Shown here: positions 1,153-60,823 of the stretch, piece by piece
Layout: every line of letters starts with the position of its first letter
Position numbering within the stretch: position 1 is the stretch's first letter
NCBI GenBank assembly: GCA_028822935.1
Contig: JAPKCM010000011.1
Coordinates: 1-64,000, forward strand
Direction: 5' to 3'
Length of the DNA: 64,000 bases
DNA from: Akkermansiaceae bacterium
GTDB taxonomy: Bacteria; Verrucomicrobiota; Verrucomicrobiia; Verrucomicrobiales; Akkermansiaceae
The notes under the pieces: model-generated
The model's input: the letters and a program-made list of their open reading frames with translations, nothing else
Databases searched by the model: none
What the model was told of the DNA's origin: nothing
Made by a program: the position numbers and the translations under genes

Positions 1153-1707
1153 TCATGCTGTCAACATGACAGCCGTCTGGGAAGGCGGCAAGAGAAAGAG
1201 ATCTTTCTCTGATATAAGCCGTGAAATCCCTTTCAAATACCGCATCGACCGTTTCGCTTCGCGATCCAAATTCCCGGGCCAGTTCTTGGACCTCAGTCCC
1301 CGCCGTTCATAAGCTGCCGACCCGTAAAAAGAGAACTTACGATCCTTCAGAAAGAGAATAAAGAAGGCCCCATTCGCCTCTACAGTTTTCTCATGTTTGA
1401 GGTTGCCAAACGCCGTTCGTGCCGGGAGCCCCTTTCCCATTAGGTGCTCCACCGCATCCATGCCGTGGTAGGTCTCTCCATTGGAACTCTCGACCAGCAA
1501 GAACGTCCAGTTTGGCGTATTCGCCGAAATCCATTTCTCCAGCCCCACCAGCTGTCCCTGCGAAACTCCAATATTTCCTTTTAAATAGAGATGCTGACTA
1601 AGGTCCATTCCTAAACAATGCTCGCCCCGCTCTTGAGCTTCAGCGGAGAATCTCCCGCCCACGCGCTCCATGTTAGAAGCAGCGAAACCACAAATCCCCT
1701 GACCCAC
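1153..1707 (-). CDS. Hypothetical protein, 184 aa
   Basis: I do not recognise the family. The predicted soluble protein has no signal peptide or membrane segment. Features are a hydrophobic strand WTFLLVES around residue 68, the segment GAFFILFLKDRKFSFYGS around residue 115, and a basic NWPGNLDREAKRSMRYL stretch around residue 143. The GTG start at 1707 lies 4 bp after the stop of the upstream exonuclease gene, which argues for translation as the last gene of that operon. Internal ATGs at 1671 and 1608 are alternatives, and the conserved-looking part begins after the second. No role can be assigned beyond the operon association with a DEDD nuclease and an RDD protein. Confidence 0.6.
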   Translation of the reverse strand: MGQGICGFAASNMERVGGRFSAEAQERGEHCLGMDLSQHLYLKGNIGVSQGQLVGLEKWISANTPNWTFLLVESSNGETYHGMDAVEHLMGKGLPARTAFGNLKHEKTVEANGAFFILFLKDRKFSFYGSAAYERRGLRSKNWPGNLDREAKRSMRYLKGISRLISEKDLFLLPPSQTAVMLTA

Positions 1708-1711
1708 GCGC

Positions 1712-2305
1712 TTACCACGACACCTTCACTTCCTGAAGATGGCCGCCCCGGTCATCGTATTTCACGAGCCCGTGCTTCTGACCGTATTCGAAAACTTCCT
1801 TGGTCACCTTCACATCGTAGCAGCAATACTCCGCAATCTTCATCATCGGCTCAATCTTCTTTGTCTTCTTATATTCCTGCCACCACTTCAGGGCATCGAG
1901 CCCATCCGCCGTTTTCGATTCCCCAAGAGTGGCCTTGGCCGCCGAGTCGAGCTTGAGACGGAAGCCCAGCGTCTCCTCCAGCTTGAGCATCATGTCGCAG
2001 TTCAACGTCTGCACCGGAAGATCGTAAATGGTGTAGCCCTGAAGGACGGGATAATCGAATTGGATATGGTTCCAGCCGACAACGAGATCCGCCTTCACGA
2101 GTTGTTCGATGAGATCTTCCACCTGATCTTCACCATAAATGTGATACCGCCCCGTTTCCGTCGAGTAGGTCACCCCCACCGACATCCCCATTTTATCCTT
2201 ATGCGCTGCGCCACCGACATCGCCAAAGCTGCGCTGCGTCTCGAGATCAAAGTAAACCGTTCCTGCCACAGCTCTATTCCTAGAGGAAGCCTCCCCCTCC
2301 GGCAA
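1712..2305 (-). CDS. DEDD-type 3'-5' exonuclease / RNase H-like protein
   Basis: This is a 197-residue ribonuclease-H-fold nuclease of the DnaQ-like DEDD class. Visible catalytic motifs are Exo I, FDLET (Asp20, Glu22); Exo II, GWNHIQFD (Asp84); and Exo III, YCCYD (Tyr160-x3-Asp164, the DEDDy arrangement). The protein is a stand-alone domain, close to the predicted RNase-H-like nucleases seen alone or beside helicases, so its substrate (DNA or RNA) cannot be read from sequence. It starts 1 bp after the stop of the RDD gene and is followed 4 bp later by the unknown 184-aa gene, so all are probably co-transcribed. The first ~15 residues look unstructured and a later start is possible. Confidence 0.85.
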   Translation of the reverse strand: MPEGEASSRNRAVAGTVYFDLETQRSFGDVGGAAHKDKMGMSVGVTYSTETGRYHIYGEDQVEDLIEQLVKADLVVGWNHIQFDYPVLQGYTIYDLPVQTLNCDMMLKLEETLGFRLKLDSAAKATLGESKTADGLDALKWWQEYKKTKKIEPMMKIAEYCCYDVKVTKEVFEYGQKHGLVKYDDRGGHLQEVKVSW

Positions 2306-2306
2306 G

Positions 2307-3095
2307 TCACGAAGCTTGCTTGTATTCTTCGAGCGTTTTCTGAATCTCAGGCCAAACTTGCGGCCCTAGCTCGGGCCAGAGAATCCACACATTCAAAACG
2401 AAGATACCTGCCATCACCGCAAAATAGAACACCAGTCTCGCTGCCGATAGCGGAGCTGCGGGAACCCGAAACCCCATCACGAGATCCCATAGGGGGGCGC
2501 CCCTCTTTTTTACCATCCACAGGGCCACCAGATGCCCAATCAAAAGGAGGATGGGCATCCTCATGCCTACGCCAAGCACCCAGACCCGCATCGAGCGCAT
2601 TATGGCCGCCCCCAACGAAAGAAGATTCTCTTCTTGATCTTCGACTCGAAGCCGCAGGACCCATTTTCCGGGGGTCAGCCCAAAAAGATGCAGCAAAATC
2701 CCCTCAAAAATAATGGCTGGCACAAAATGGGCGGCGAAGACCCAAGCCGTGATCTGCTCACTCGGGTCGGGCATCATTTTCATCCCGCCCAGACGAAAGA
2801 CGAACAAGATCAAGCATGAATAAAGCGCCAGATCAAGCCAGCGCGCCCCCAGTCGACGCCACAGAATCCCCCAATCGGTCTTCACCGGCAAGGGTGGCGG
2901 CACGGGGATTTCTTCCACCTTCTTCTCAAACTCTGCTTCGAAAAAGTGAACCTCCTTAGCAGGCATCCACCCCTCCGCGCCTTCATACCACATCTGAACA
3001 TCTTCGGAGAGTTCATCCCTGCGAATCCGTTCACGAATCTCGTAGTCCTCGTATGGACCCCGTTTTTCTCCATCCTCAATCAGCCAGATTTCCAT
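2307..3095 (-). CDS. GYF_2 + RDD domain membrane protein
   Basis: The 262-residue protein begins with a GYF_2-like domain (residues 1-50, with WLIEDGEKRGPYEDYEI and MWYEGAEGWMPA). An RDD domain follows (about 75-260) with the characteristic Arg/Asp pattern (RRLGARWLDLALY, GLTPGKWVLRLRV) and four or five hydrophobic segments. RDD proteins are poorly characterised polytopic inner-membrane proteins, some implicated in transport. It lies 5 bp downstream of the LolC/E-like gene and 1 bp upstream of the exonuclease gene. The GYF_2-RDD combination is common in PVC-group genomes (recollection, not checked here). Confidence 0.85.
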   Translation of the reverse strand: MEIWLIEDGEKRGPYEDYEIRERIRRDELSEDVQMWYEGAEGWMPAKEVHFFEAEFEKKVEEIPVPPPLPVKTDWGILWRRLGARWLDLALYSCLILFVFRLGGMKMMPDPSEQITAWVFAAHFVPAIIFEGILLHLFGLTPGKWVLRLRVEDQEENLLSLGAAIMRSMRVWVLGVGMRMPILLLIGHLVALWMVKKRGAPLWDLVMGFRVPAAPLSAARLVFYFAVMAGIFVLNVWILWPELGPQVWPEIQKTLEEYKQAS

Positions 3096-3100
3096 TCAAT

Positions 3101-4729
3101 TTAAAGATTACGGAGTGATTTTGCAGGATCGCGGAAGGCCGCCATGAGAGCGGGAACAAGCGCGGCAATGAGACAGAGAATCACCGCGACAACGCAGATC
3201 ACTCCAAGGTGCTCCGGAATAATGCGGGCCGGAAGCTCGTCCATCCCATGGAACCCAGCCGGGAAGGCATCGATCCCTATCCCTCTGAGTAGAGTTAAAA
3301 TTCCCTGACGGTATTCGAGCGCCAACAAACCAAGTCCCAAACCCAGCAGCGATCCCGCGATGCCCACGATCACACCTTGGTAGAGGAAGACGCGCACAAT
3401 CTGCGAAGGCCGTGCACCGAGCGCTTTCATCACGCCGATCTCCTGACGCTTCTGCACTGTCACGGTATACATCACGGCTGTGATGCTGAAGGCCGAGAGG
3501 ATCGTGATAAAGGAGAGCGCAAAGCTCATCATCACCTTTTCCGTTTTAACCAACTGAAATTGCTGCTCGTGAGTCTTCATCCAACTGCGCACGAGCCAAT
3601 CCTCGCCCAGCTTCTTCTGCAGCTTTGTCGCGACCACTTCCGCATGGTAAGGATCTTCCGCTCGGATTCCGATCGCTTCGACTGCTTCTTGCAAACCTTT
3701 GAGCTGCTGACCGATCGCCAGTGGCACAAAGGCTCCTGGTCCCTGCGAGCGCTTGGTATCCCGATAGATACCAATGACCGTCACTTCCACAGGAGTGACA
3801 AATTCCTCAATATTCGCGAAGGCCTGTAAGTCCGCTTCCTTCAGATCAATATCCCTCAGATCCCCGAGCATATTTCTAACAACCTGCTGCGTTCCGGCGG
3901 CAAAATACTCCCTGCCCGAATCATCTTTCCGCAAGGGCTTATTAAGCACAGCAAAGAGAATCCCATCGATAATTTCAGCCTCACCAGCGCGCATCGGCTT
4001 ACCTTTTGTTCCTTCTTCCAGCAGAATAAGGTCTTGGATTATGCGGAAGGCCTCCGTCAGCTTTGCTCCCTCTACCACTTCTTCCTCACCAGATTTGCTA
4101 AATATCGTTTCAACCGCTTCTGCAAACGGCCCCAAGCGATCTTCGTAAAGAATCCAGGCGCGCTCTTGCTGCTTGATGCGGTAGACTTCCATCACCGCAT
4201 CGAGATTCTTGGACGCCAGAAAATTAAGCTTATCGCCGACCTGCAAACTCAGAGCCTCGGCAAGCTGACGCGAGATCACAGCTCGGTCATCCAGGCCCAT
4301 ATCAGCACTACTCGTCGGGTGCGCTTCCAGATCAAGTTGTTCTTCAAGCGCCTCGATCTGTGCTGCGTTCTCAGAATTGATCGCCCGAAAAACCACCGGC
4401 TTCTGCCAGCCTTTCGCATCGAGGAGCACATATCCCTCGATGAGTGCGTAGGCCCCAATCACGCCCTCTTCCTCAGCGAGACTTTTTTCCATCGGCTCCC
4501 AATCCAAAATCCCCGCACCATAGGCCGACTCCAGCCGAACGTGCGGAGCATAGCCCAGCAGTATCTCCTTAAGGTTCCGCTCAAAGCCCGCATGGACTGA
4601 AAGCACCACGATTAGAACCATTACCCCTGCAGCCACGCCGAGAAGCGAGATCAAGGTGATGATCGAAACGAATGTCCGAAGCGGATTAAGATACCGCAGA
4701 GCAAGGGTCCAACTGAAAGATTTCAACAC
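3101..4729 (-). CDS. LolC/LolE-family lipoprotein-releasing ABC transporter permease
   Basis: This is a 542-residue FtsX/MacB-type permease. An N-terminal transmembrane segment (residues 20-48, STLISLL-like then GVMVLIVVLSVHAGF) is followed by a long periplasmic MacB_PCD-like region. A C-terminal FtsX core has three membrane spans and the coupling motif KRQEIGVMKALGARPSQIV around residue 430. The family extracts outer-membrane lipoproteins from the inner membrane together with the ATPase LolD. It is about 130 residues longer than E. coli LolC/LolE, the surplus lying in the periplasmic domain. No LolD ATPase is adjacent: the divergent neighbour is a glyoxalase. LolC and LolE cannot be told apart, so no symbol is given. 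Confidence 0.88.
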   Translation of the reverse strand: MLKSFSWTLALRYLNPLRTFVSIITLISLLGVAAGVMVLIVVLSVHAGFERNLKEILLGYAPHVRLESAYGAGILDWEPMEKSLAEEEGVIGAYALIEGYVLLDAKGWQKPVVFRAINSENAAQIEALEEQLDLEAHPTSSADMGLDDRAVISRQLAEALSLQVGDKLNFLASKNLDAVMEVYRIKQQERAWILYEDRLGPFAEAVETIFSKSGEEEVVEGAKLTEAFRIIQDLILLEEGTKGKPMRAGEAEIIDGILFAVLNKPLRKDDSGREYFAAGTQQVVRNMLGDLRDIDLKEADLQAFANIEEFVTPVEVTVIGIYRDTKRSQGPGAFVPLAIGQQLKGLQEAVEAIGIRAEDPYHAEVVATKLQKKLGEDWLVRSWMKTHEQQFQLVKTEKVMMSFALSFITILSAFSITAVMYTVTVQKRQEIGVMKALGARPSQIVRVFLYQGVIVGIAGSLLGLGLGLLALEYRQGILTLLRGIGIDAFPAGFHGMDELPARIIPEHLGVICVVAVILCLIAALVPALMAAFRDPAKSLRNL

Positions 4730-4836
4730 CGCAAGATTCCCCCGCTTGGGTGAAATGACAAACCCAATCTCCCCCAGAGCGTCAAGAGAGCTAAAATTCC
4801 GATGGAATTCGCGGTATCCCGAGAATAGCCTCCGCC

Positions 4837-5211
4837 GTGATCAAATTTCTCCACACCCGTGTCCGTGTCGCCGATCCTGCTGCTTCTATCGCGTTCTACC
4901 AGAAGCTCGGATTCGAACTCGGCGTGCAGAAAACCTCCCCCCAAGGAAATCAGCTCGCCTTCCTCCACCTCCCCGGAAACGACCATTTTTTAGAGCTCAC
5001 CCACTCTCCCGACTACAAAGTCGAGGTTCCCGAAGATCTGATGCACACCGCTGTCGGCGTCGAGGACATCATTGCCTACTGTGATGCGCTCGAAAATGGC
5101 GGTATCGAAATCTGGCCCGGCGGCTGGCGCGAGAAATTCTCTACCGGCGAGCGCAAAATGGCTTTCGTGACCGATCCCGACGGCTACGAGGTCGAAATCC
5201 TCGAAAAGTAG
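4837..5211 (+). CDS. VOC-family lactoylglutathione lyase-like protein (glyoxalase I)
   Basis: A 124-residue single vicinal-oxygen-chelate domain, the usual length for bacterial GloA. Candidate metal ligands fall at the expected positions: His6 (FLHTRVRV), Glu53 (FLELTH), His70 (LMHTAVGV) and Glu120 (DPDGYEVEILE). The ending DPDGYEVEI is typical of glyoxalase I, which isomerises the methylglyoxal-thiol hemithioacetal to a lactoyl thioester. ATG at 4837 follows a short divergent spacer with the LolC/E-like gene. It precedes coaX by 71 bp, which contains a probable promoter, so it is likely monocistronic. The thiol cofactor used in this organism is not evident. Confidence 0.88.
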   Translation: MIKFLHTRVRVADPAASIAFYQKLGFELGVQKTSPQGNQLAFLHLPGNDHFLELTHSPDYKVEVPEDLMHTAVGVEDIIAYCDALENGGIEIWPGGWREKFSTGERKMAFVTDPDGYEVEILEK

Positions 5212-5233
5212 GCCCGGTTAAAAATTTACCTCA

Positions 5234-5254
5234 TTTGGATTTGTTTAGAGTTTC
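5234..5254 (+). repeat. Short interspersed 21-bp repeat (copy 1)
   Basis: The 21 bp beginning TTTGGATTTG and ending AGAGTTTC are identical to 7675-7695. An inverted partial copy sits near 7513-7531. The copy lies just upstream of coaX; the second lies just upstream of metX. It is A/T-rich and may be part of promoters rather than a mobile repeat. Confidence 0.4.
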
Positions 5255-5282
5255 TCCAGCTAGAATCTAAGATCCCCCCCCA

Positions 5283-6014
5283 ATGCACCTTCTTATCGAT
5301 AACTCGAATACGCGCACCAAGATCGCTCTCGCCGAGGGTCTATCCATCTCGGAGTGGCGCGCCGTCATTCCAACACCCGAGTTATCGCCTGAAACCCTTA
5401 CCAGTGTTCTTGCGGGAGTCACATTCGACAAAGTCTCCGTCTGCTCCGTCGTCCCAAAAGCCGCTGAAATGATGGAGACCTATTTCGAGGTCTCCCTTCA
5501 CCAAATTTCCCACCAGTCGATCCTCCCGATCAAGATCGACTACCCTTGCCCGGAACAAATCGGGGCAGACCGCCTCGCCAATACTGTGGCCGCCGTTTCC
5601 AAATATGGTGCCCCAGCCATCGTGATCGATTTCGGCACCGCAGTGACCTTCGATGTCGCCAGCGCAGAGGGCGCTTACCTTGGCGGTGCGATTGCGCCAG
5701 GCACCGCTTCTCTGCGAAATTACCTCCACCGCCAAACAGCTCTCCTCCCTTCTATTCAACTCACCGAACCCACCAACGCGATTGGAAAAAGCACTGAAGA
5801 CGCGATGCAAGTAGGCGCAGTGATCGGCTATCGCGGCCTCATTCGCGAAATCTTAAAAGAAATCCGTGAGGAATTAGGCGGCAACCCGGCGATCATTGCC
5901 ACGGGAGGCGATGCCGCCCTCATTGCAAGTGGCCTCGATGAAATCAGGAGCATCGATCCCGACCTCACCCTGGAAGGAATTCGCCAGATTGGTGTGACAA
6001 ATCACAAAAATTGA
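5283..6014 (+). CDS. coaX: Type III pantothenate kinase
   Basis: CoaX phosphorylates pantothenate to 4'-phosphopantothenate, the first step of CoA synthesis. The 243-residue protein shows the acetate/sugar kinase-Hsp70-actin fold motifs of the type III family: phosphate-1 LIDNSNTRTK (residues 4-13), GADR (94-97) and phosphate-2 VIDFGTAVTFD (114-124). GGAIAPG follows at about 135. The first motif reads DNSNT where DxGNT is usual. ATG 5283 lies directly after a run of eight C residues, with no purine-rich Shine-Dalgarno. With panC (31.6 kb) it gives two steps of pantothenate/CoA synthesis in this window. The next gene, a ROK kinase, starts 48 bp downstream. Confidence 0.95.
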   Translation: MHLLIDNSNTRTKIALAEGLSISEWRAVIPTPELSPETLTSVLAGVTFDKVSVCSVVPKAAEMMETYFEVSLHQISHQSILPIKIDYPCPEQIGADRLANTVAAVSKYGAPAIVIDFGTAVTFDVASAEGAYLGGAIAPGTASLRNYLHRQTALLPSIQLTEPTNAIGKSTEDAMQVGAVIGYRGLIREILKEIREELGGNPAIIATGGDAALIASGLDEIRSIDPDLTLEGIRQIGVTNHKN

Positions 6015-43347: not shown

Positions 43348-44430
43348 TTATTTCCGATAAAAAGGCTTTTTCACGACTTTTGCCGAAAGGTATTTTCCTC
43401 GGATTTCGATTTGAACCGGAGTGTTCACCTTCACCCGATCCGTCGGAAGATAAGCAAGTCCAATTCCGGTACCAAGCGAGGGAGAAAGACCACCCGAGGC
43501 CAATTCACCGAGGGGCCTACCCTCCATATCATGGACCGGATAGCCCGGCCGGGGTGGCGCGCCTCTTTCACAAAGCTGGATCGCCATCAGTCGCTCGCTT
43601 ACGCCCTGTTCCTTTTGATCACGCAAGGCATCACCGCCAATGAAGCGCTCTTTCCCAAGTGCCACAAACATTCCTAATCCTGCTTCCAGTGGACTCCGGC
43701 TTGGAGAAAGGTCCGAACCATTGAGCGGATAGCACATTTCCAGTCGAAGCGAATCCCGGGCTCCCAGTCCGCAGGGAGCGACACCCTCATCCATAAGGAG
43801 TGACCACCAAGAGGAAGCCTGGGAAGCAGGGCAGAAAAGTTCGAAGCCGTCTTCGCCCGTGTATCCGGTGCGACAGACAATCATGCGATGACCCATGTGA
43901 CTCAAATCATCGACATGGTTGCGCGCAGGAAGAGTGCGTCCTTCAGTCATCTTAAAATAAACCTCTGAGGCATCTGGCCCCTGAACTGCGATGCCTGCCC
44001 AGTCATCACTGAGATTTTCCAACTGCAGATCCCCTTCCAGATGCTGAGTGAGCCAATCGACGTCTTCCTTGATCTTTGCGGCATTCACTAGAAGCAGGTA
44101 GTCATTTTCGGCGAGACGATAGATGATCAGATCATCGATCACTCCACCCTGGTCATTCAGAAGAAAAGTATACTGTGCCTCCCCGTCCTCAAGCTTAGCG
44201 ACATCATTCGCCAGCATTCGGTTGAGCCACGATTCTGCGTCATCCCCTTTTAAAAAAAGCTGTCCCATGTGGGAAATATCGAAGACCCCCACGTGCTCGC
44301 GCACTGCCTTATGTTCGTCGATAATAGACGAATACATCACCGGCATTTCCCAACCAGTAAAGGGCACCATCCTTCCTCCGAGCTCTCGATGCTTCTCGTC
44401 CAAGGGGGAAAGTCTTAAGACGTCACTCAC
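43348..44430 (-). CDS. gcvT: Aminomethyltransferase, T-protein
   Basis: GcvT releases ammonia from the H-protein intermediate and passes the methylene to tetrahydrofolate. The 360-residue protein has FTGWEMPVMYSSIIDEHKAVREHVGVFDISHMG, LNDQGGVIDDLIIYRL and CRTGYTGEDGFELF, and ends in KVVKKPFYRK. Translation starts at GTG 44430. First gene of gcvT-gcvH-gcvP-nudix. No glycine riboswitch was recognised in the 63-bp gap to the divergent gene. Confidence 0.96.
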   Translation of the reverse strand: MSDVLRLSPLDEKHRELGGRMVPFTGWEMPVMYSSIIDEHKAVREHVGVFDISHMGQLFLKGDDAESWLNRMLANDVAKLEDGEAQYTFLLNDQGGVIDDLIIYRLAENDYLLLVNAAKIKEDVDWLTQHLEGDLQLENLSDDWAGIAVQGPDASEVYFKMTEGRTLPARNHVDDLSHMGHRMIVCRTGYTGEDGFELFCPASQASSWWSLLMDEGVAPCGLGARDSLRLEMCYPLNGSDLSPSRSPLEAGLGMFVALGKERFIGGDALRDQKEQGVSERLMAIQLCERGAPPRPGYPVHDMEGRPLGELASGGLSPSLGTGIGLAYLPTDRVKVNTPVQIEIRGKYLSAKVVKKPFYRK

Positions 44431-54855: not shown

Positions 54856-55062
54856 ATGAAATTAGCTCTTCTCCTCACGGCCTTCGCCCTTTGTTCCTGT
54901 GCAGAGGTTTCCATTGTCGATCAGCCCCAGCTCAGCAAACCGGCGATGAGTTTTGCGCAAAAAGGGGCCGATTTCTCAGAGTTCACCCTGGTGAGCCAAT
55001 TGGAACGCGGTCGCACCAGTAGTTCACAAAGCGCCGGAGGGGGCTGCGCCTCATGCCACTAA
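54856..55062 (+). CDS. DUF4266-like small lipoprotein ending in CxxCH
   Basis: A 68-residue lipoprotein (KLALLLTAFALCSC, lipobox-type LCSC) with the DUF4266 pattern: QLSKPAMSF in the middle and a Gly-rich C-terminus. Family members usually end GGGCGCN; this one ends GGGCASCH, a CxxCH sequence that could take covalent heme or bind metal. It lies 31 bp before the beta-barrel gene. In other genomes DUF4266 proteins sit beside DUF3570 barrels, thioredoxin-like proteins and ApbE-type flavin transferases (recalled from the family). No ApbE gene is seen here. Confidence 0.72.
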   Translation: MKLALLLTAFALCSCAEVSIVDQPQLSKPAMSFAQKGADFSEFTLVSQLERGRTSSSQSAGGGCASCH

Positions 55063-55093: not shown

Positions 55094-56254
55094 ATGAAGC
55101 TCCTTTTCCTCTTTCTCCTCACTGGACTCGCCTTCGCAGGGCCCGCCGATTCTTTCTCCTCCATCGAAGAATCGTCCTCCGATGCGGAAGACTCCGGGTC
55201 TTTTTTCGATCGTGTCTTCACCGGGATCCAACGAGTCGATCAGGACTTCGATATTTTGGATGACCGTGACGTCAGTGTCTGGCGGAGCACTTTCGCCTAC
55301 CGTCAAGAGCGATCCCACTGGAATATCGAAGCCAACGTTGGCTACACCGATATCTCAATTGACTATTCAGATCCCGTGGGAGGAACATCAGCGACCAGCC
55401 GCCGGGAAGACTCCTGGTCCGGAGGCTTGATTCTGGGGACCGACCTTTCTGAAGATCTCTCGCTCACCCTTGGATTTTCGCGCTACGAAGGTTTCAACAA
55501 CTACGGATCCGTATGGATTTCGGAATACTACGATCAATTTGTAGGAATCCCTGATCCGACCAATTACAATCCAGCAGACCCAAATGGATCTACTTTGAGT
55601 GGCAACCTGATCTGGGACTACGACCCTGGAGTAGCTCGCCTCACCCTTTCCTTCTCTTACGGAAATGACGAAATCGTTCCTGCCTGGAGCCTCGTTCCGA
55701 ATCCCGGTAATTTTTTCATCCCCGAAGCAACCCCGACCGGAAGCTCTTTCGATACCTACACTGGGTCCGTCGCTTGGGCCAAAGCGCTCAGCCCCTCGCT
55801 ACGCACGCAGACGACATTCCGCTTCAGCGACGTGACCGAACTTGATCCGCGCTTCCAGCTACAAAACGATACTGCCTGGGCCATTTCGGATAACCTAACC
55901 TTACGCGCCCAAACGGGAGCGTCGATCCAACATCCGGATTTTGAGGCCTTCTATGGGGGACTTTCCCTTGTTTATAATCTCAACGCTAATTGGAGTGTCG
56001 GAGTTTCAGCCCGCGTCTACGACGATACCGGCGAGATCGTCCCCGTAGGATTTAACACGGCTGCACCAGCAATCAGCTCGACCGAGTTCAGCGCCTCTCT
56101 CGCTTGGCAAAAACTGAGCACGACAGTTCGAATCTCCGCTGGAATCTATGACGTCGACTACGACCCGCTTGGTCCTTCTAACCAATTCTTCGCAGACCTT
56201 TATCGTGACCGTAGTTTCCTCGTCACGCGCCTTGCCCTCACCCACACTTTTTAA
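55094..56254 (+). CDS. Outer-membrane beta-barrel protein (DUF3570-like by context)
   Basis: From ATG 55094 a 386-residue exported protein (KLLFLFLLTGLAFAGP). After a Ser/Asp-rich linker the rest is made of alternating amphipathic strands (VSVWRSTFAYRQERSHWNIEANVGY, LTLSFSYGND, LVYNLNANWSVGVSARVYD). It ends VTRLALTHTF, with the C-terminal Phe used for BAM recognition. This fits an outer-membrane barrel of 14 or more strands. Context next to the DUF4266-like lipoprotein suggests DUF3570, but sequence hallmarks are not decisive. It is 3 bp from the next gene, so it is co-transcribed with the selenoprotein gene. A GTG at 55064 is a less likely start. Confidence 0.75.
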   Translation: MKLLFLFLLTGLAFAGPADSFSSIEESSSDAEDSGSFFDRVFTGIQRVDQDFDILDDRDVSVWRSTFAYRQERSHWNIEANVGYTDISIDYSDPVGGTSATSRREDSWSGGLILGTDLSEDLSLTLGFSRYEGFNNYGSVWISEYYDQFVGIPDPTNYNPADPNGSTLSGNLIWDYDPGVARLTLSFSYGNDEIVPAWSLVPNPGNFFIPEATPTGSSFDTYTGSVAWAKALSPSLRTQTTFRFSDVTELDPRFQLQNDTAWAISDNLTLRAQTGASIQHPDFEAFYGGLSLVYNLNANWSVGVSARVYDDTGEIVPVGFNTAAPAISSTEFSASLAWQKLSTTVRISAGIYDVDYDPLGPSNQFFADLYRDRSFLVTRLALTHTF

Positions 56255-56257
56255 AAA

Positions 56258-57283
56258 ATGAAATCCTGCTTCCTTCCCCTCTTTTCCCTCGCTTCCTTCG
56301 CGCTGGGTGGTCCCCCCGAACCCGGAGATTCTTCAGAAAATGTCACCTACTCTCTGGGCGGAAACTCCCTTAATAACCAAAACCAGTTCACTGAACTAAC
56401 GAACTCACAGCTCTCAGATCTGGCAGGCAAGGTCATCCTCGTCGCTTATTACACGCCCTGGTGATCAGGATGAGCCACTATGGTTTCTCAGTTGGGAAAC
56501 GAAATCATCGACCACTTTAATGACGCCTCACGTGGCAATCTCGTTGGAAGAAATGACAGCGGAATTGAATTCACCTCCATCCTTCTCTCTCTCGAGACTT
56601 CGGGTTTCGACAGATTGATCAGGATGGCAGCTGAAAACAACGGGTTCTCCCAGTATGGCCTGGATTCACTGAGTGATCGCAACACGAATGTGCGAGATGG
56701 CTTCAGCTTCTATCGTGGAGTTGAATCAACAGGGCCTCCGGGATCTCTTAGCTTCGCCCAACGGCGACGCATCGTTGTCATCGATAATAGTGATGCTTCC
56801 AACCCGGTCATTCGCCACAATGACCTCCCCCTGGGTTCAGGTTCTCTCGGCGCTCCCAATGTCGCGCTCATCCAAGCTGCTATTAATGACACTCCTGCCC
56901 CCAGTGAACTCGATTTCAACACCTGGCTTGCTGATTTCTCTCCACCCGCCGGACAGGATGGAACCTTCGACGATCCAGATCAGGACGGCTCCACCAACCT
57001 CCTGGAGTTTTCCTCAGGCACGGATCCAACGAGCGCTTCCGACTTTCCCTTTCAAAAATTAGAGGTATCCGAAGACGGATTTCAACTAACTATCCGCCGT
57101 TTCACAATGGCGGGAGGAATTGCGCGAGGATTTGACTCAGGAACTCTCGGCAATCTTTCCTCAACCACCATTGATGAAAGCAATGCCACCTCGGTTTCAC
57201 TCGGCGGAGACATTGAGGAAGTGAGCATCCCACTCCCGGCCAACTTCGGCCCCTTCATCCGACAAACCGTGACTCTCCCATAA
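56258..57283 (+). CDS. Putative secreted thioredoxin-fold selenoprotein with a UxxU motif (two in-frame TGA)
   Basis: One frame from ATG 56258 to 57283 (341 codons) is broken only by TGA at 56462-56464 and 56471-56473, giving TPW-U69-S-G-U72-ATMVSQ. The TGAs fall exactly at the two cysteines of a thioredoxin CxxC: a beta strand (GKVILVAYY) and TPW precede, and a helix (ATMVSQLGNEIIDHF) follows. Both sides read coding-like and in phase. A signal peptide (CFLPLFSLASFALGG) predicts periplasmic export. The C-terminal ~130 residues include DDPDQDGSTNLLEFSSGTDP, a calcium-binding DxDxDG repeat common in secreted Verrucomicrobiota proteins. A hairpin suited to a SECIS follows the second TGA. Plain pseudogene stops cannot be excluded, but two such placements by chance are unlikely. 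Confidence 0.8.
56483..56500 (+). promoter_or_regulatory. Candidate bacterial SECIS hairpin
   Basis: GTTTCTC (56483-56489), loop AGTT (56490-56493) and GGGAAAC (56494-56500) form a 7-bp stem with one G-U pair. The loop G at 56491 is 18 nt after the second TGA and 27 nt after the first. This meets the usual bacterial SECIS rule, recalled as a G among the first loop bases and about 16-37 nt from TGA. Confidence 0.6.
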
Positions 57284-57322: not shown

Positions 57323-59041
57323 ATGATTCGCCCGCTCCTTGCCGGATTCCTTCTAACCCTCACTTCCATGGGTCCGGGATTGGCAGCGCCTGTTTTCGTC
57401 GCGCCCGACGATTCAGTTCCCTTGATTCGGCGGGATCTCATCCCCCTGGACTCCGCGGCGATCGATCATTTGGCAGATGCTTTGACCACCTTGGCAGACA
57501 GTCCGCTTAAGAATAACGCGCTCTCCCTGCGGCAACGCGCTCAACTTCTAGCCCTCACCTTGCGTCTTTCTCCTTCGCAGAGCCGCGCCCGCGAAATGCT
57601 CCGGAACGTGATCAACGGCAGCTACCAGCCTTCCATCCAGGAAAGTCGCAAGAAGAGCGCGCGAGGCCATGGTTTCCTCACCGCAAAGTGGCTCCTCGAA
57701 ATGCCCGAAGAGAGTGAAGGCAAGCACCTCGGCAATCTCCTTCTCGATGTTCTCGCACCGTATCAAAGCGATCATCCCCTTTTAGAAAAAAGAGCCCCCT
57801 CTGATGAAGACCGATGGAAGGGAATCATCGCGCCACTGACCACTTTCGAGAACGCTTCCAAGCCGCAGCCACTCGACCCGACACCGGAGACTCCGGAAAA
57901 TAGCAAATATGCCACCACCGGCCTCCTTACAACGACTCCGCTCGTGACCGTGATAAACGGCCAAGTCAGGTATGGCCCGGTCAACGTCCGCCTCATCCTT
58001 ACCGAACGCGGCAAGGGCCAATTGAAGTTCAAGCCCGCTCTCACAAGCTCGAATGGTCCAGAACGTCCCACTCAACCCCTGCATGACGCTCTCATGCAGT
58101 TTTACCAAGGCCAGGACCGCCCGCTACCCAAAGGCTACGATCTTTATCTCGATACCGGCAGAGGGACCTACGCCGAAAGGAATAAGGAAAACATCACCGC
58201 CCCCCTCGCCATGATGCTGGACGCAGCAAGCACGGGCCGCCCCCTTGCTTCAAACATCGTCCTCTTCGCCCGCCTCCATGCCGATGGCTCCCTTTCCCGC
58301 CCCTTCGAGAGCTGGCCCCTCATCTACTCACTCCGAAATAAACGACCCTCCGCAGGAACCCGCCTCCTGGTTCCTCCCGAACTCGCAGAAGAACTCACCG
58401 CTCTTCTTGTTCTCGAACATCCAAGCTTTCTCCTTCGCTTTGAAATCATTTCCTGTGCTAGCTTCAATGAAGCACGTCAGATCTATCTCGAAGACGCCCA
58501 ACAACCGGACGACATTCAAGCCGCGAGCAAGATCTTCAAAGAGGTAACCGAAGCGCTCAGAAGAACCTCCGATGGAAACATTGCCGCCAAGCTCGTCTAT
58601 GACAGTGTCAAATCCCGACTTCAAGAGGCCGCCGAAGCCTCTCCGAGGCACCTTTCCGCCCAAATTCTTCTCAAGCAAGCATCAGGAAACCACCCATCCT
58701 CCTTTTCCACTCCCATGTTCGCCCGCGAGTTCATTCGCATCACGGAATCCCTCACTAATCCTCCGGACATCCACTACAATTCCAGCTCCAGAGCGCTTAA
58801 AACCTTCCAAACCGAACAAAAGGCTCTCCTCGTAGAATTCAGCGAGAGCCGCCGGGTTTCCCAGGACGACGACCCTCTCGTTGAAGAAGGAAAGAATCTC
58901 GTCGATAAGTTGCGACCGGTCATCCGCTTGATCGATAAAGACCAATCAATTCCTGCTACCTTACAACTCACATTTTGGCTCAAGGAGGTTACTTTGTTCC
59001 GGGATCGTCTCAAACGCCTTACTGGCAATTCTGAGCGTTAG
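57323..59041 (+). CDS. Secreted Lon-fold pseudoprotease (inactive paralogue of the next gene)
   Basis: A 572-residue exported protein (signal peptide LLAGFLLTLTSMGPGLAA) with a helical N-terminal half. A central region aligns to the Lon S16 proteolytic domain of the next gene: LPKGYDLYLDTGRG, then ITAPLAMMLDAASTGRPL, and ADGSLSRPFESWPLIYSL. At the positions of the catalytic pair, GPSAG of the neighbour is ITAP here (Ser replaced, probably by Thr) and VAGKIRGA is FESWPLIYS (Lys lost). The C-terminal part is helical. It is 40 bp from the selenoprotein gene and 58 bp from the Lon gene. A binding or regulatory role is inferred; the family name is not known to me. Confidence 0.7.
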   Translation: MIRPLLAGFLLTLTSMGPGLAAPVFVAPDDSVPLIRRDLIPLDSAAIDHLADALTTLADSPLKNNALSLRQRAQLLALTLRLSPSQSRAREMLRNVINGSYQPSIQESRKKSARGHGFLTAKWLLEMPEESEGKHLGNLLLDVLAPYQSDHPLLEKRAPSDEDRWKGIIAPLTTFENASKPQPLDPTPETPENSKYATTGLLTTTPLVTVINGQVRYGPVNVRLILTERGKGQLKFKPALTSSNGPERPTQPLHDALMQFYQGQDRPLPKGYDLYLDTGRGTYAERNKENITAPLAMMLDAASTGRPLASNIVLFARLHADGSLSRPFESWPLIYSLRNKRPSAGTRLLVPPELAEELTALLVLEHPSFLLRFEIISCASFNEARQIYLEDAQQPDDIQAASKIFKEVTEALRRTSDGNIAAKLVYDSVKSRLQEAAEASPRHLSAQILLKQASGNHPSSFSTPMFAREFIRITESLTNPPDIHYNSSSRALKTFQTEQKALLVEFSESRRVSQDDDPLVEEGKNLVDKLRPVIRLIDKDQSIPATLQLTFWLKEVTLFRDRLKRLTGNSER

Positions 59042-59098: not shown

Positions 59099-60823
59099 AT
59101 GGCTTACGCGAAATCCTTTTTGCTCCTTCTCTTTAGTGCCTGCTACCTGCTAGCAGATACCTATCGACCGCCCAACCTCGACAAGGAAATCTTCGATGTC
59201 GACAAGATCAAAATCGACAGGATCTCTGAGTCCTCTCTTTTTGCCGGGCTGCTCTCAGTTGCGAAAGATTTCGACGAAGAAGATCATGAAGTGGACTTTG
59301 AACTTCGCGGTCATGCCCTCGCCATCGCTGGCCGCTTGAAGCCAGACAATGACAACTTTCTCAGCATCCTCGGCGACCTCAAGGAACGCGGCAAGGCCAA
59401 CAGTGTCGACGGAATGACCACCTCACACGCCGTTTCCAAAATCTACCGTGGCCTTCGTGTCCTCATGCGAAAAAAGGACAACGAGGACAACGTGAAGCTT
59501 GCGAGCTACTGCGCAGATATCGCCCTCCGCCTCGATGAGGGTGGCAAGGAAGCCAAGAAGATTAAGGAAATCCTCGAAGAGGCCGGTCAGCCCGACTGGA
59601 AGGACATGCTCGGTTCTCCCATCTACAACACCGGTGGTGGTAGAGGAGGACCTCCCAACGAATTTAAGGAACGTCTGGAAACCATCCCTGGTGGTAAAGC
59701 TGAAAAGTTCGCGGGCATCCAGAGTTCCGTTTATGCCCTTTCCGTCCGTCAACTTTCAAACGGTCGCCACGCAGGTGCCGCCAGCTCTCTTTCCGCCACC
59801 GCCCTCCGGGACAAGGATGTCGATGGTGTTGAATTCCACATCGACCAGAAAGTCGGCAACATGACCGGCAACTCACTCGAAGAAATTGCAAAATTCATGC
59901 GTGTCCGCCACGAAGAGGCTGGTCGTGTTCCTGCTGGATATAAGGTAGAAATGGCCTTCGAGGATAAGGACGGCCTTCTCGATGGACCTTCGGCGGGCAC
60001 CGCGATGTCCCTCATTATCGACGCCCTCTTCACCGGAAATAAGCTCGATGAAAGTTTTGCCTGCACCGGAACAATCACTGCCGATGGCAAAGTGGGGAAG
60101 ATCGGTGGAGTCGCAGGAAAGATTCGTGGCGCCACGAAAAAGAAATGCAAGCTGGCCGGAGTCCCCGCCGAAAACATTCCCGGTGTTTCTGACATCTACG
60201 TCCTCGATGGCATCGAACCACTCATCAACATTCAGGTCTTCTCGTTCGCCAAGTTTGAAGGAGCACTGAAAGTTGCCTCGGCAAACAAACCCACCGAAGT
60301 GCAAGAAACGATCGATGACTTCAACAAGATTGCCACCCTGCTCAAGGATCAGGGTGAAGATATGCTCAAAAGCCCTGCCGTCATTTCCAAACTCGAAAAG
60401 GTCGTTAAGGCAATGCCCAATCACGAGTCGGCCCGTATTCTTCTCGAAGTTGCCAAGGGAACCCCACCCAAGACCCTCTCAATCGGGGGCTCCTTCCATC
60501 AAATCGACACCGCAACTTCCAGCATCAAACAAAAGATTCAGATGATCAGCTGGACTGAAGAATTTAACCGCGAGAGCACCGACAAGGCAGACGCCGCTGA
60601 GGCTCTCGAACTCCTCAAGGAAGTGGATAACAAGGTTGATTCCCGCCTTTCCGATTTTCAAAAGGCGATGCTCGAGATTACCGAAATCTTCCACGATGGA
60701 CGTAAAGATTCTGAGAAAGACGACGAATTTGTCGAACGACTCAAGACCTCTTGGGAAGAAGTCCAGTCCGAACGAAAGAAGCTCATGGAAAATCCAGAGA
60801 TCATGGAGGAACTCTACGGCTAG
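59099..60823 (+). CDS. Secreted Lon-like serine protease (S16), without ATPase domain
   Basis: A 574-residue exported protein (FLLLLFSACYLLADTYRPP). After a helical region of about 190 residues and a GGGRGG linker, a Lon-type S16 domain extends over residues 225-380. It has FEDKDGLLDGPSAGTAMSLI (nucleophile Ser298) and GKVGKIGGVAGKIRGATKK (Lys341). The 43-residue Ser-Lys distance equals that of E. coli Lon (679-722). Lon's AAA+ module is missing, so the protease must act without ATP, outside the cytoplasm. A helical C-terminal region (residues 400-574) follows. It is downstream of its inactive paralogue. A terminator follows at 60871-60897. Confidence 0.85.
   Translation: MAYAKSFLLLLFSACYLLADTYRPPNLDKEIFDVDKIKIDRISESSLFAGLLSVAKDFDEEDHEVDFELRGHALAIAGRLKPDNDNFLSILGDLKERGKANSVDGMTTSHAVSKIYRGLRVLMRKKDNEDNVKLASYCADIALRLDEGGKEAKKIKEILEEAGQPDWKDMLGSPIYNTGGGRGGPPNEFKERLETIPGGKAEKFAGIQSSVYALSVRQLSNGRHAGAASSLSATALRDKDVDGVEFHIDQKVGNMTGNSLEEIAKFMRVRHEEAGRVPAGYKVEMAFEDKDGLLDGPSAGTAMSLIIDALFTGNKLDESFACTGTITADGKVGKIGGVAGKIRGATKKKCKLAGVPAENIPGVSDIYVLDGIEPLINIQVFSFAKFEGALKVASANKPTEVQETIDDFNKIATLLKDQGEDMLKSPAVISKLEKVVKAMPNHESARILLEVAKGTPPKTLSIGGSFHQIDTATSSIKQKIQMISWTEEFNRESTDKADAAEALELLKEVDNKVDSRLSDFQKAMLEITEIFHDGRKDSEKDDEFVERLKTSWEEVQSERKKLMENPEIMEELYG

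Follow-up and report, generated by a model that had tools for sequence, protein, structure and literature searches.

A UxxU redoxin, very probably a selenoprotein, encoded with a lipoprotein and a predicted outer-membrane barrel in an Akkermansiaceae bacterium

Two in-frame UGA codons at the active site of a redoxin

In a 64,000-nucleotide stretch of DNA from an Akkermansiaceae bacterium (the window), one gene carries two in-frame TGA codons at the place of a thioredoxin CxxC pair. The locus raises two questions: whether these codons are read as selenocysteine (Sec), and what the product does beside the genes with which it is encoded. With TGA read as a residue, the frame runs uninterrupted from 56258 to 57283 (+), gives 341 residues with W-U-S-G-U at codons 69 and 72, and ends in TAA. 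A preliminary description of the locus, made from the sequence alone, had given this frame and both codons exactly. It had also anticipated that a standard gene caller would cut the gene, and the mechanical open reading frame (ORF) list of the window indeed represents it by 56480-57283 alone (267 aa). The redoxin follows a lipoprotein gene and a barrel gene, in that order and all on the (+) strand. The chief interest of the locus lies in this setting, about which the preliminary description had gone no further than a guess that it could be new. The features of the window are as follows.

54856-55062 (+): lipoprotein, 68 aa, with the tail GGGCASCH, a Cys form that is DUF4266-like (lipobox LCSC, by eye)
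55094-56254 (+): predicted outer-membrane beta-barrel, 386 aa, 16 long strands in the model (ORF from GTG 55064; likely start, ATG 55094)
56258-57283 (+): exported UxxU redoxin, 341 aa (reading with TGA as a residue, alignment, and AlphaFold model)
56462-56464 (+): TGA read as selenocysteine 69, first active-site position (codon reading and alignment)
56471-56473 (+): TGA read as selenocysteine 72, second active-site position (codon reading and alignment)
56483-56500 (+): SECIS-like hairpin GTTTCTC[AGTT]GGGAAAC within the coding sequence, with a 7-bp stem and an AGUU loop (alignment and covariation)
56912-57280 (+): C-terminal module of the redoxin, a DDPDQDG segment followed by a beta domain (own-genome matches and model)

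The preliminary description had proposed a selenoprotein and suggested looking for selA, selB, selC (tRNA-Sec), and selD in the genome, as well as for homologues with Cys or Sec at residues 69 and 72. All four genes are present: selA (485.6 bits), selB (278.3 bits; cutoff, 242.25), selD (386.5 bits), and tRNA-Sec (53.9 bits; cutoff, 47), the last called SeC with anticodon tca (UCA) by ARAGORN. Among 145 genomes of the family, selA was matched in 65 (64 above the cutoff); it occurred in 14/14 genomes with a UGA redoxin versus 51/131 others (Fisher test, P = 6e-6, relatedness ignored). Two of the four genomes with a CxxC redoxin have selA (G031 and G130), and two have none (G039 and G073). Together with the Cys or Sec found at both codons in homologues and a covarying hairpin downstream, this machinery upholds the selenoprotein reading. 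Recoding of UGA to selenocysteine at both redoxin codons thus appears almost certain, and sequence evidence could hardly carry this reading further; the chemistry of the gene set is a testable proposal.

The selD gene of the same genome (L047; G000 C53:6429-7358, -) contains one in-frame TGA of its own, and its product is probably Sec-containing.

Fold and domains of the redoxin

Behind a signal peptide read by eye, a thioredoxin-like domain covers approximately residues 16 to 216. The AlphaFold model (pLDDT, 92.2) is a confident redoxin fold, in agreement with the thioredoxin fold first proposed, with a strand at 58-65, a helix at 70-87, and the active-site pair starting this first long helix. 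The highest structural score went to 2ls5, a PDI-like protein from Bacteroides (Z = 15.0), with several others within 1. ResA, DsbE, and CcmG scored approximately 13 to 14.5, the peroxiredoxins AhpE, Bcp, and Tpx scored 13 to 14, and Sco1/BsSco scored 13.0 to 13.4. Because PDI-like, DsbE/ResA, peroxiredoxin, and Sco structures are all nearly equal (Z = 13 to 15), structure alone cannot separate a reductase from a peroxidase. In Pfam, the redoxin fell below the curated cutoffs of AhpC-TSA (17.9 versus 26 bits), Redoxin (14.8 versus 26.6 bits), and Thioredoxin (14.8 versus 23.5 bits). The similarity to AhpC-TSA is weak across the family set, with 13 of 18 members matching at an E value of ≤1 (best, 3.7e-05), and none of the 18 matched PF04592 at that threshold. 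No SelL-type model occurred among the NCBIfam matches of the redoxins, which leaves membership in SelL unsupported. From its sequence and model, the gene product is predicted to be an exported thioredoxin-fold oxidoreductase of the TlpA/ResA/peroxiredoxin class.

Similarity to the C-terminal DxDxDG/beta segment recurs within other proteins from the same genome (21 further matches, mostly weak); the segment is probably a surface module that is common in this group. It also showed a weak match to the NCBIfam Amuc_1099 pilus-like model (E value, 7.9e-06, below the cutoff). Fusions of the redoxin domain occur in L085 and L092 (genus g28), with long Pro-Glu and Gly-rich repeat regions, and in L117, with Ig-like domains.

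Selenocysteine and cysteine forms among homologues

The family search retrieved matches in 21 of the 145 genomes, 18 of which span the thioredoxin domain; 3 match the C-terminal module alone (L042 to L044) and were not counted. All genomes compared are draft assemblies. The 18 domain-covering redoxins, the window's included, divide as follows.

UxxU (n = 9): L001, L025-L027, L033, L035-L038
UxxC (n = 5): L032, L034, L039-L041
CxxC (n = 4): L028-L031

As the preliminary description had anticipated, the two positions hold Cys or Sec throughout, in the combinations Sec/Sec, Sec/Cys, and Cys/Cys only. The nearest homologue (L025; 60% identity) has TGA at both. Besides the two Cys/Sec positions, W68, D136, R170, and N210 are invariant across the 18-row alignment. 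Searching the named genome contigs with the single redoxin protein yielded one relative (L045), which is apparently the same contig as L025.

At the order level, a profile search of 386 genomes matched a redoxin in 30 (best 7 candidates per genome). Stretches from these genomes supplied further redoxin genes, with several per genome in genus g28; genome G254 of this genus had five profile matches among its best 7 candidates. The active site could be read in 32 genes, of which 27 have UGA and 5 have Cys at both positions. Sec is first in all of the UGA redoxins (27/27), Cys is second in some (8/27), and CxxU was found in 0/32 genes read. Such a distribution would be expected of a nucleophilic first residue, and at the level of alignment, the constant Sec there speaks for a thioredoxin-type attack by that residue. 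Not included in these counts are partial matches (L075 to L084, of which L080 to L084 were the sole yield of a phylum search) and L098, a more distant Cys redoxin whose sequence falls outside the motif pattern.

A tree of 31 redoxins, built with the motif left out, requires at least 6 changes among the UU, UC, and CC states. L095 was excluded from this tree as too short; L093, which has a TAG within its frame, was absent from the alignment (A5) but was retained among the hairpins and, written with X, in the tree. Active sites with two Sec residues are rare, and close relatives here span UxxU, UxxC, and CxxC. The CPTC genes L029 and L030 adjoin the UPTC gene L032 on branches of 0.01 to 0.03. 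These three redoxins are near identical, the first position being Sec in L032 and Cys in the other two, and the hairpin described below is broken in the Cys forms. The trio represents a very recent Sec-Cys exchange; with its decayed hairpin, it makes the benefit of selenium directly testable.

A covarying hairpin downstream of the UGA codons

With Rfam, nothing in the window reached the gathering level; the hairpin was therefore tested by alignment. An AGKU loop motif (A-G-(G/T)-T) lies at one fixed place, 16 nt past the second active-site codon, in 27/27 UGA redoxins. Within the flanking stems, 84% of cells were paired, compared with 37 to 55% when the partner was slid, and two-sided changes numbered 46 versus 16.9 in shuffles (0/500 shuffles). 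A stem of at least 4 bp with the AGKU loop was present in 19/27 UGA redoxins and 0/5 Cys redoxins. In 2,000 synonymous resamplings, a mean of 1.8 and a maximum of 6 of the 27 genes had a stem of at least 4 bp. Protein constraint (mostly a Gln codon) accounts for part of the fixed motif; the stems differ and covary.

Two of the genes scored as failing the 4-bp threshold (L036 and L037) were those in which another hairpin was picked, and the fixed-place hairpin is seen in both. The others with a stem below 4 bp were L032, L085, L087, both L091 genes, and L094. The 27 redoxin hairpins were also used to build a covariance model, which recovers redoxin genes and did not find the hairpins of the lipoprotein genes (see below) at an E value of ≤10. 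Because coding sequence makes up most of the 42 positions, the model was not used as evidence for the lipoproteins. One match of this model in the window (43750-43794) is antisense to an ORF on the opposite strand and was set aside as chance.

A lipoprotein with a probable selenocysteine site in one clade

In 20 operons, a lipoprotein with a C-terminal Cys pair could be read ahead of the barrel. Twelve of these, including that of the window, have a CxxC tail, and eight are Sec forms, in which UGA replaces the first tail Cys to give G-U-x-x-C, followed by TAA or TAG.

Operons with a Sec-form lipoprotein: L103, L104, L105, L110, L111, L112, L118, L099

These operons coincide exactly with an eight-gene clade of the redoxin tree (support, 100/99), so the change from Cys to Sec in the lipoprotein may have been a single one. 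Because only a few codons separate the UGA from the stop, automated gene calling would truncate or overlook the Sec form. Hairpins were tabulated for 16 of the 20 lipoproteins (7 Sec and 9 Cys; the same 16 make up alignment A7), and L099, L087, L101, and L108 were examined separately. All seven tabulated Sec forms have a hairpin after the stop, five with an AGUU loop (four of 6 to 8 bp; L104 has 3 bp and then a mismatch) and two with other loops and 8 bp (L110 and L111). By eye, L099 has the AGTT arrangement likewise. Of the nine Cys forms, none has an AGKU hairpin after the stop, and unrelated stems of up to 6 bp are present. Since the post-stop hairpin lies outside the coding sequence of the lipoprotein, it is not explained by the protein.

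In L111 (3568-3795, -), the lipoprotein tail reads U-T-U, with UGAs one codon apart, a possible UxU pair. The lipoprotein gene of L108 ends in a TGA stop. In genome G102, a contig break splits the operon (L099 and L038), leaving the lipoprotein, the barrel, and the first redoxin codons on C470 and the remainder on C270.

Linkage of the redoxin to an outer-membrane barrel

The barrel model (pLDDT, 82.6) has 16 long strands by our own count. Barrel matches occurred in 27 of the 386 order genomes (best 5 candidates per genome), 26 of which belong to the 30 genomes with a redoxin match (P = 4e-35). By coordinates, 26 of 28 barrel loci have a redoxin directly downstream on the same strand; the other two are G338, where the contig runs out, and G254 C259, where no redoxin is seen. 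ORF comparison recovered the barrel in 17 of 20 neighborhoods, and L108 has a barrel too. No barrel adjoins the redoxin in L114 or L115 (genus g28), and no lipoprotein was found ahead of the barrel in L098; thus, the three-gene set is separable.

Cysteine is absent beyond the first 26 residues in 16 of 17 barrels. The flavinylation motif [S/T]GA[S/T] occurs in 1/17, that of the window (TGAS at residue 274), and is not conserved. Foldseek matches of the barrel included FadL and numerous further barrels; TM-scores normalized to query length were <0.5 among the matches listed, and for this reason, no function was read from the structure. ApbE, DsbD, and a dedicated metal transporter were not found by Pfam among 42 neighbors of the window and eight loci. 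These neighbors were chosen by ORF length, and some are hidden (e.g., in L109), so the absence of ApbE rests on those 42. The window's genome contains DsbD_TM, and no DsbD was found beside the operon.

Comparison with described systems

In fold and export, the redoxin resembles the TlpA/ResA/DsbE extracytoplasmic thiol reductases, from which it differs by Sec at both active-site positions and by sequence scores that are all under the family cutoffs. SelL, a diselenide Prx-like selenoprotein, likewise has UxxU within a Prx-like fold. As far as SelL is described, the redoxin differs from it in being an exported two-module protein in a bacterial operon.

UxxU as such has already been reported in prokaryotic Prx-like proteins: it is described for "Prx-like 2" of an ocean survey (PMC2398784, available text), and Table 1 of a 2026 inventory includes Prx-like UxxC/UxxU selenoproteins (PF00578; PMC13188914). 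The redoxin shares a Trx/Prx-like fold and UxxC or UxxU with these proteins. It differs from them in being exported, in the DxDxDG/beta C-terminal module of most members, and in its barrel-lipoprotein operon; "Prx-like 2," compared by its description in that text, might be related to it. No DUF4266 or DUF3570 selenoprotein appears in Table 1 of PMC13188914, and the Sec lipoprotein would be a selenoprotein family missing from that table. Term searches of the available texts gave no mention of selenocysteine in PMC8238504, which names DUF3570 and DUF4266, and none of Verrucomicrobia in PMC12013277 and PMC9312934.

The closest parallel in gene content is provided by clusters of the form DUF4266-DUF3570-thioredoxin-like-ApbE(-DsbD), described in the available text of PMC8238504, the authors of which propose that the Cys tail of DUF4266 may redox-cycle. 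Like these, the window set combines a small secreted protein carrying a C-terminal Cys pair with a partner of approximately 400 aa and a thioredoxin-like protein. As far as that text describes the clusters, the present sets differ from them in that the lipoprotein tail is CxxC/UxxC rather than CxC, the barrels have no conserved flavin site, no ApbE occurs among the 42 neighbors scanned, and a Sec redoxin stands in place of the thioredoxin. In our genomes, the same order of small protein and then barrel is seen in L120 and L121, where DUF3570 follows a canonical DUF4266 (tail GGGGCGCN); these are the only 2 of 18 DUF3570 loci at which a DUF4266-type small gene was recognized upstream by the pattern used.

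Judged by their sequences, the lipoprotein and the barrel are not formal members of DUF4266 or DUF3570. DUF4266 (PF14086) was matched by 1 of 16 lipoproteins, at 18.7 bits (cutoff, 27); in comparison with true DUF4266, the N-terminal part aligns and the tail does not. The C-terminal CxC pair of the DUF4266 type was not found in the lipoproteins, the tails of which are CxxC or UxxC and once UxU. DUF3570 (PF12094) was not detected in the three barrels scanned (Pfam E value, ≤1), and the DUF3570 match of the window's own genome is a different gene (at C101). By hhalign, the barrel aligned to DUF3570 with a probability of 90.9% (E value, 1.1e-06; 11% identity over 183 columns), a weak match; barrels generally resemble each other.

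Proposed function

The best explanation, to which we assign a probability of about 0.58, is that the UxxU redoxin is recoded by the cell's own Sec machinery and works with the lipoprotein and the barrel as a selenium dithiol relay. For the relay role of the set taken by itself, we would give even odds; the chemistry of the partnership, the direction of electron flow, and the final acceptor are what we infer. In the proposed sequence of events, SelA, SelB, tRNA-Sec, and SelD would read both redoxin UGAs, with one hairpin directing both codons. DsbD-type envelope carriers would donate electrons and reduce the Se-Se pair, and the first Sec of the redoxin would then attack the Cys-x-x-Cys (or Sec-x-x-Cys) on the Gly-rich lipoprotein tail. 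The lipoprotein, together with the barrel at the outer membrane, would pass the electrons onward. Overall, this would amount to a flavin-free selenium version of the DUF4266-DUF3570-thioredoxin clusters.

A bolder form of this proposal, which we hold tentatively and at somewhat less than even odds, is a flavin-free electron relay at the outer membrane with two dedicated selenoproteins, the UxxU redoxin and the UxxC-tailed lipoprotein, beside the barrel. The set would be the selenium counterpart of the flavinylated DUF3570 systems, and the lipoprotein tail may serve as a swinging redox arm, by analogy with animal thioredoxin reductase, which has a C-terminal Sec tail. What would be new is the two-selenoprotein outer-membrane set, the chemistry of which is a proposal; it would tie selenium to uncharacterized envelope redox systems of the DUF4266/DUF3570 type.

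We consider it unlikely that the set handles metals or metalloids instead, with the Cys/Sec lipoprotein tail binding a soft metal and the redoxin keeping that site reduced, as Sco/TlpA do for copper. Sco1/BsSco rank among the structural matches, and the Cys-form operon of L109 lies directly behind a DUF2063 gene (PF09836). Upstream of that operon (oriented 1663-5284), this gene is accompanied by a KDGCKG-repeat peptide, a DoxX-like frame, an ECF-type sigma factor, and an MNIO/DUF692-like frame. The MNIO/DUF692, DoxX, and Cys-repeat assignments are tentative, and the gene makeup is presumably that of a bufferin-type metal-binding RiPP cluster. L108 likewise has a DUF2063-like gene, which falls in the same BLAST cluster. 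The link to soft metals was retained as a rival on account of the RiPP-like neighbors of L109, and the VIT1 iron transporter is present in 25 DUF3570 clusters according to the available text of PMC8238504. Against metal handling, the invariant redoxin residues include no His, none of the 42 neighbors scanned is a dedicated metal transporter, and RiPP-like genes were seen at just two loci, both of the Cys form, and at no Sec-form locus, although not all neighbors were identified.

A selenium peroxidase is quite unlikely. Here, the second Sec would reduce peroxides at the cell surface and the first would resolve, with the lipoprotein tail merely recycling the enzyme. The second Sec presumably lies where TxxC peroxiredoxins have their peroxidatic residue. 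AhpE, Bcp, and Tpx rank with the best structural matches, and the invariant R170, at the start of strand 170-177, may correspond in place to the active-site Arg of peroxiredoxins. A TxxU-type peroxidase would, however, be expected to keep the second position, which is the one replaced by Cys in 8 of the 27 UGA redoxins, the first always being Sec. PDI-like and DsbE structures also match equally or slightly better.

To a DsbA/PDI-like oxidative folding or isomerase factor for surface proteins, unconnected with electron export, we give a low probability. The top structural score is that of the PDI-like 2ls5, tied within 1 with several others, and the redoxin is exported and, in L085, L092, and L117, fused to repeat or Ig-like modules. 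A UxxU pair, however, is expected to be more reducing than CxxC and hence unsuited to an oxidase, and the tight linkage with one barrel and one CxxC/UxxC lipoprotein suggests dedicated partners. A reading without selenium (a pseudogene, a sequencing error, or TGA decoded as another residue, such as Trp) has a negligible probability and no supporting point was found for it: many genomes have TGA at these two codons, alternating with Cys and in no row with Trp, TGG (Trp) immediately precedes the first TGA of the redoxin, TGA serves as the normal stop of the homologous genes L028, L035, and L037, and Sec machinery is found in the genome.

Beyond the redoxin gene, the window contains two neighboring paralogues (57323-59041 and 59099-60823, both +), each with what looks by eye like a signal peptide. 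In Pfam, the first has no match, and the second is matched to the catalytic domain of Lon protease S16 (E value, 6.4e-11). At 10 of 20 loci, all with the same genus code, one or both paralogues occur close to the operon.
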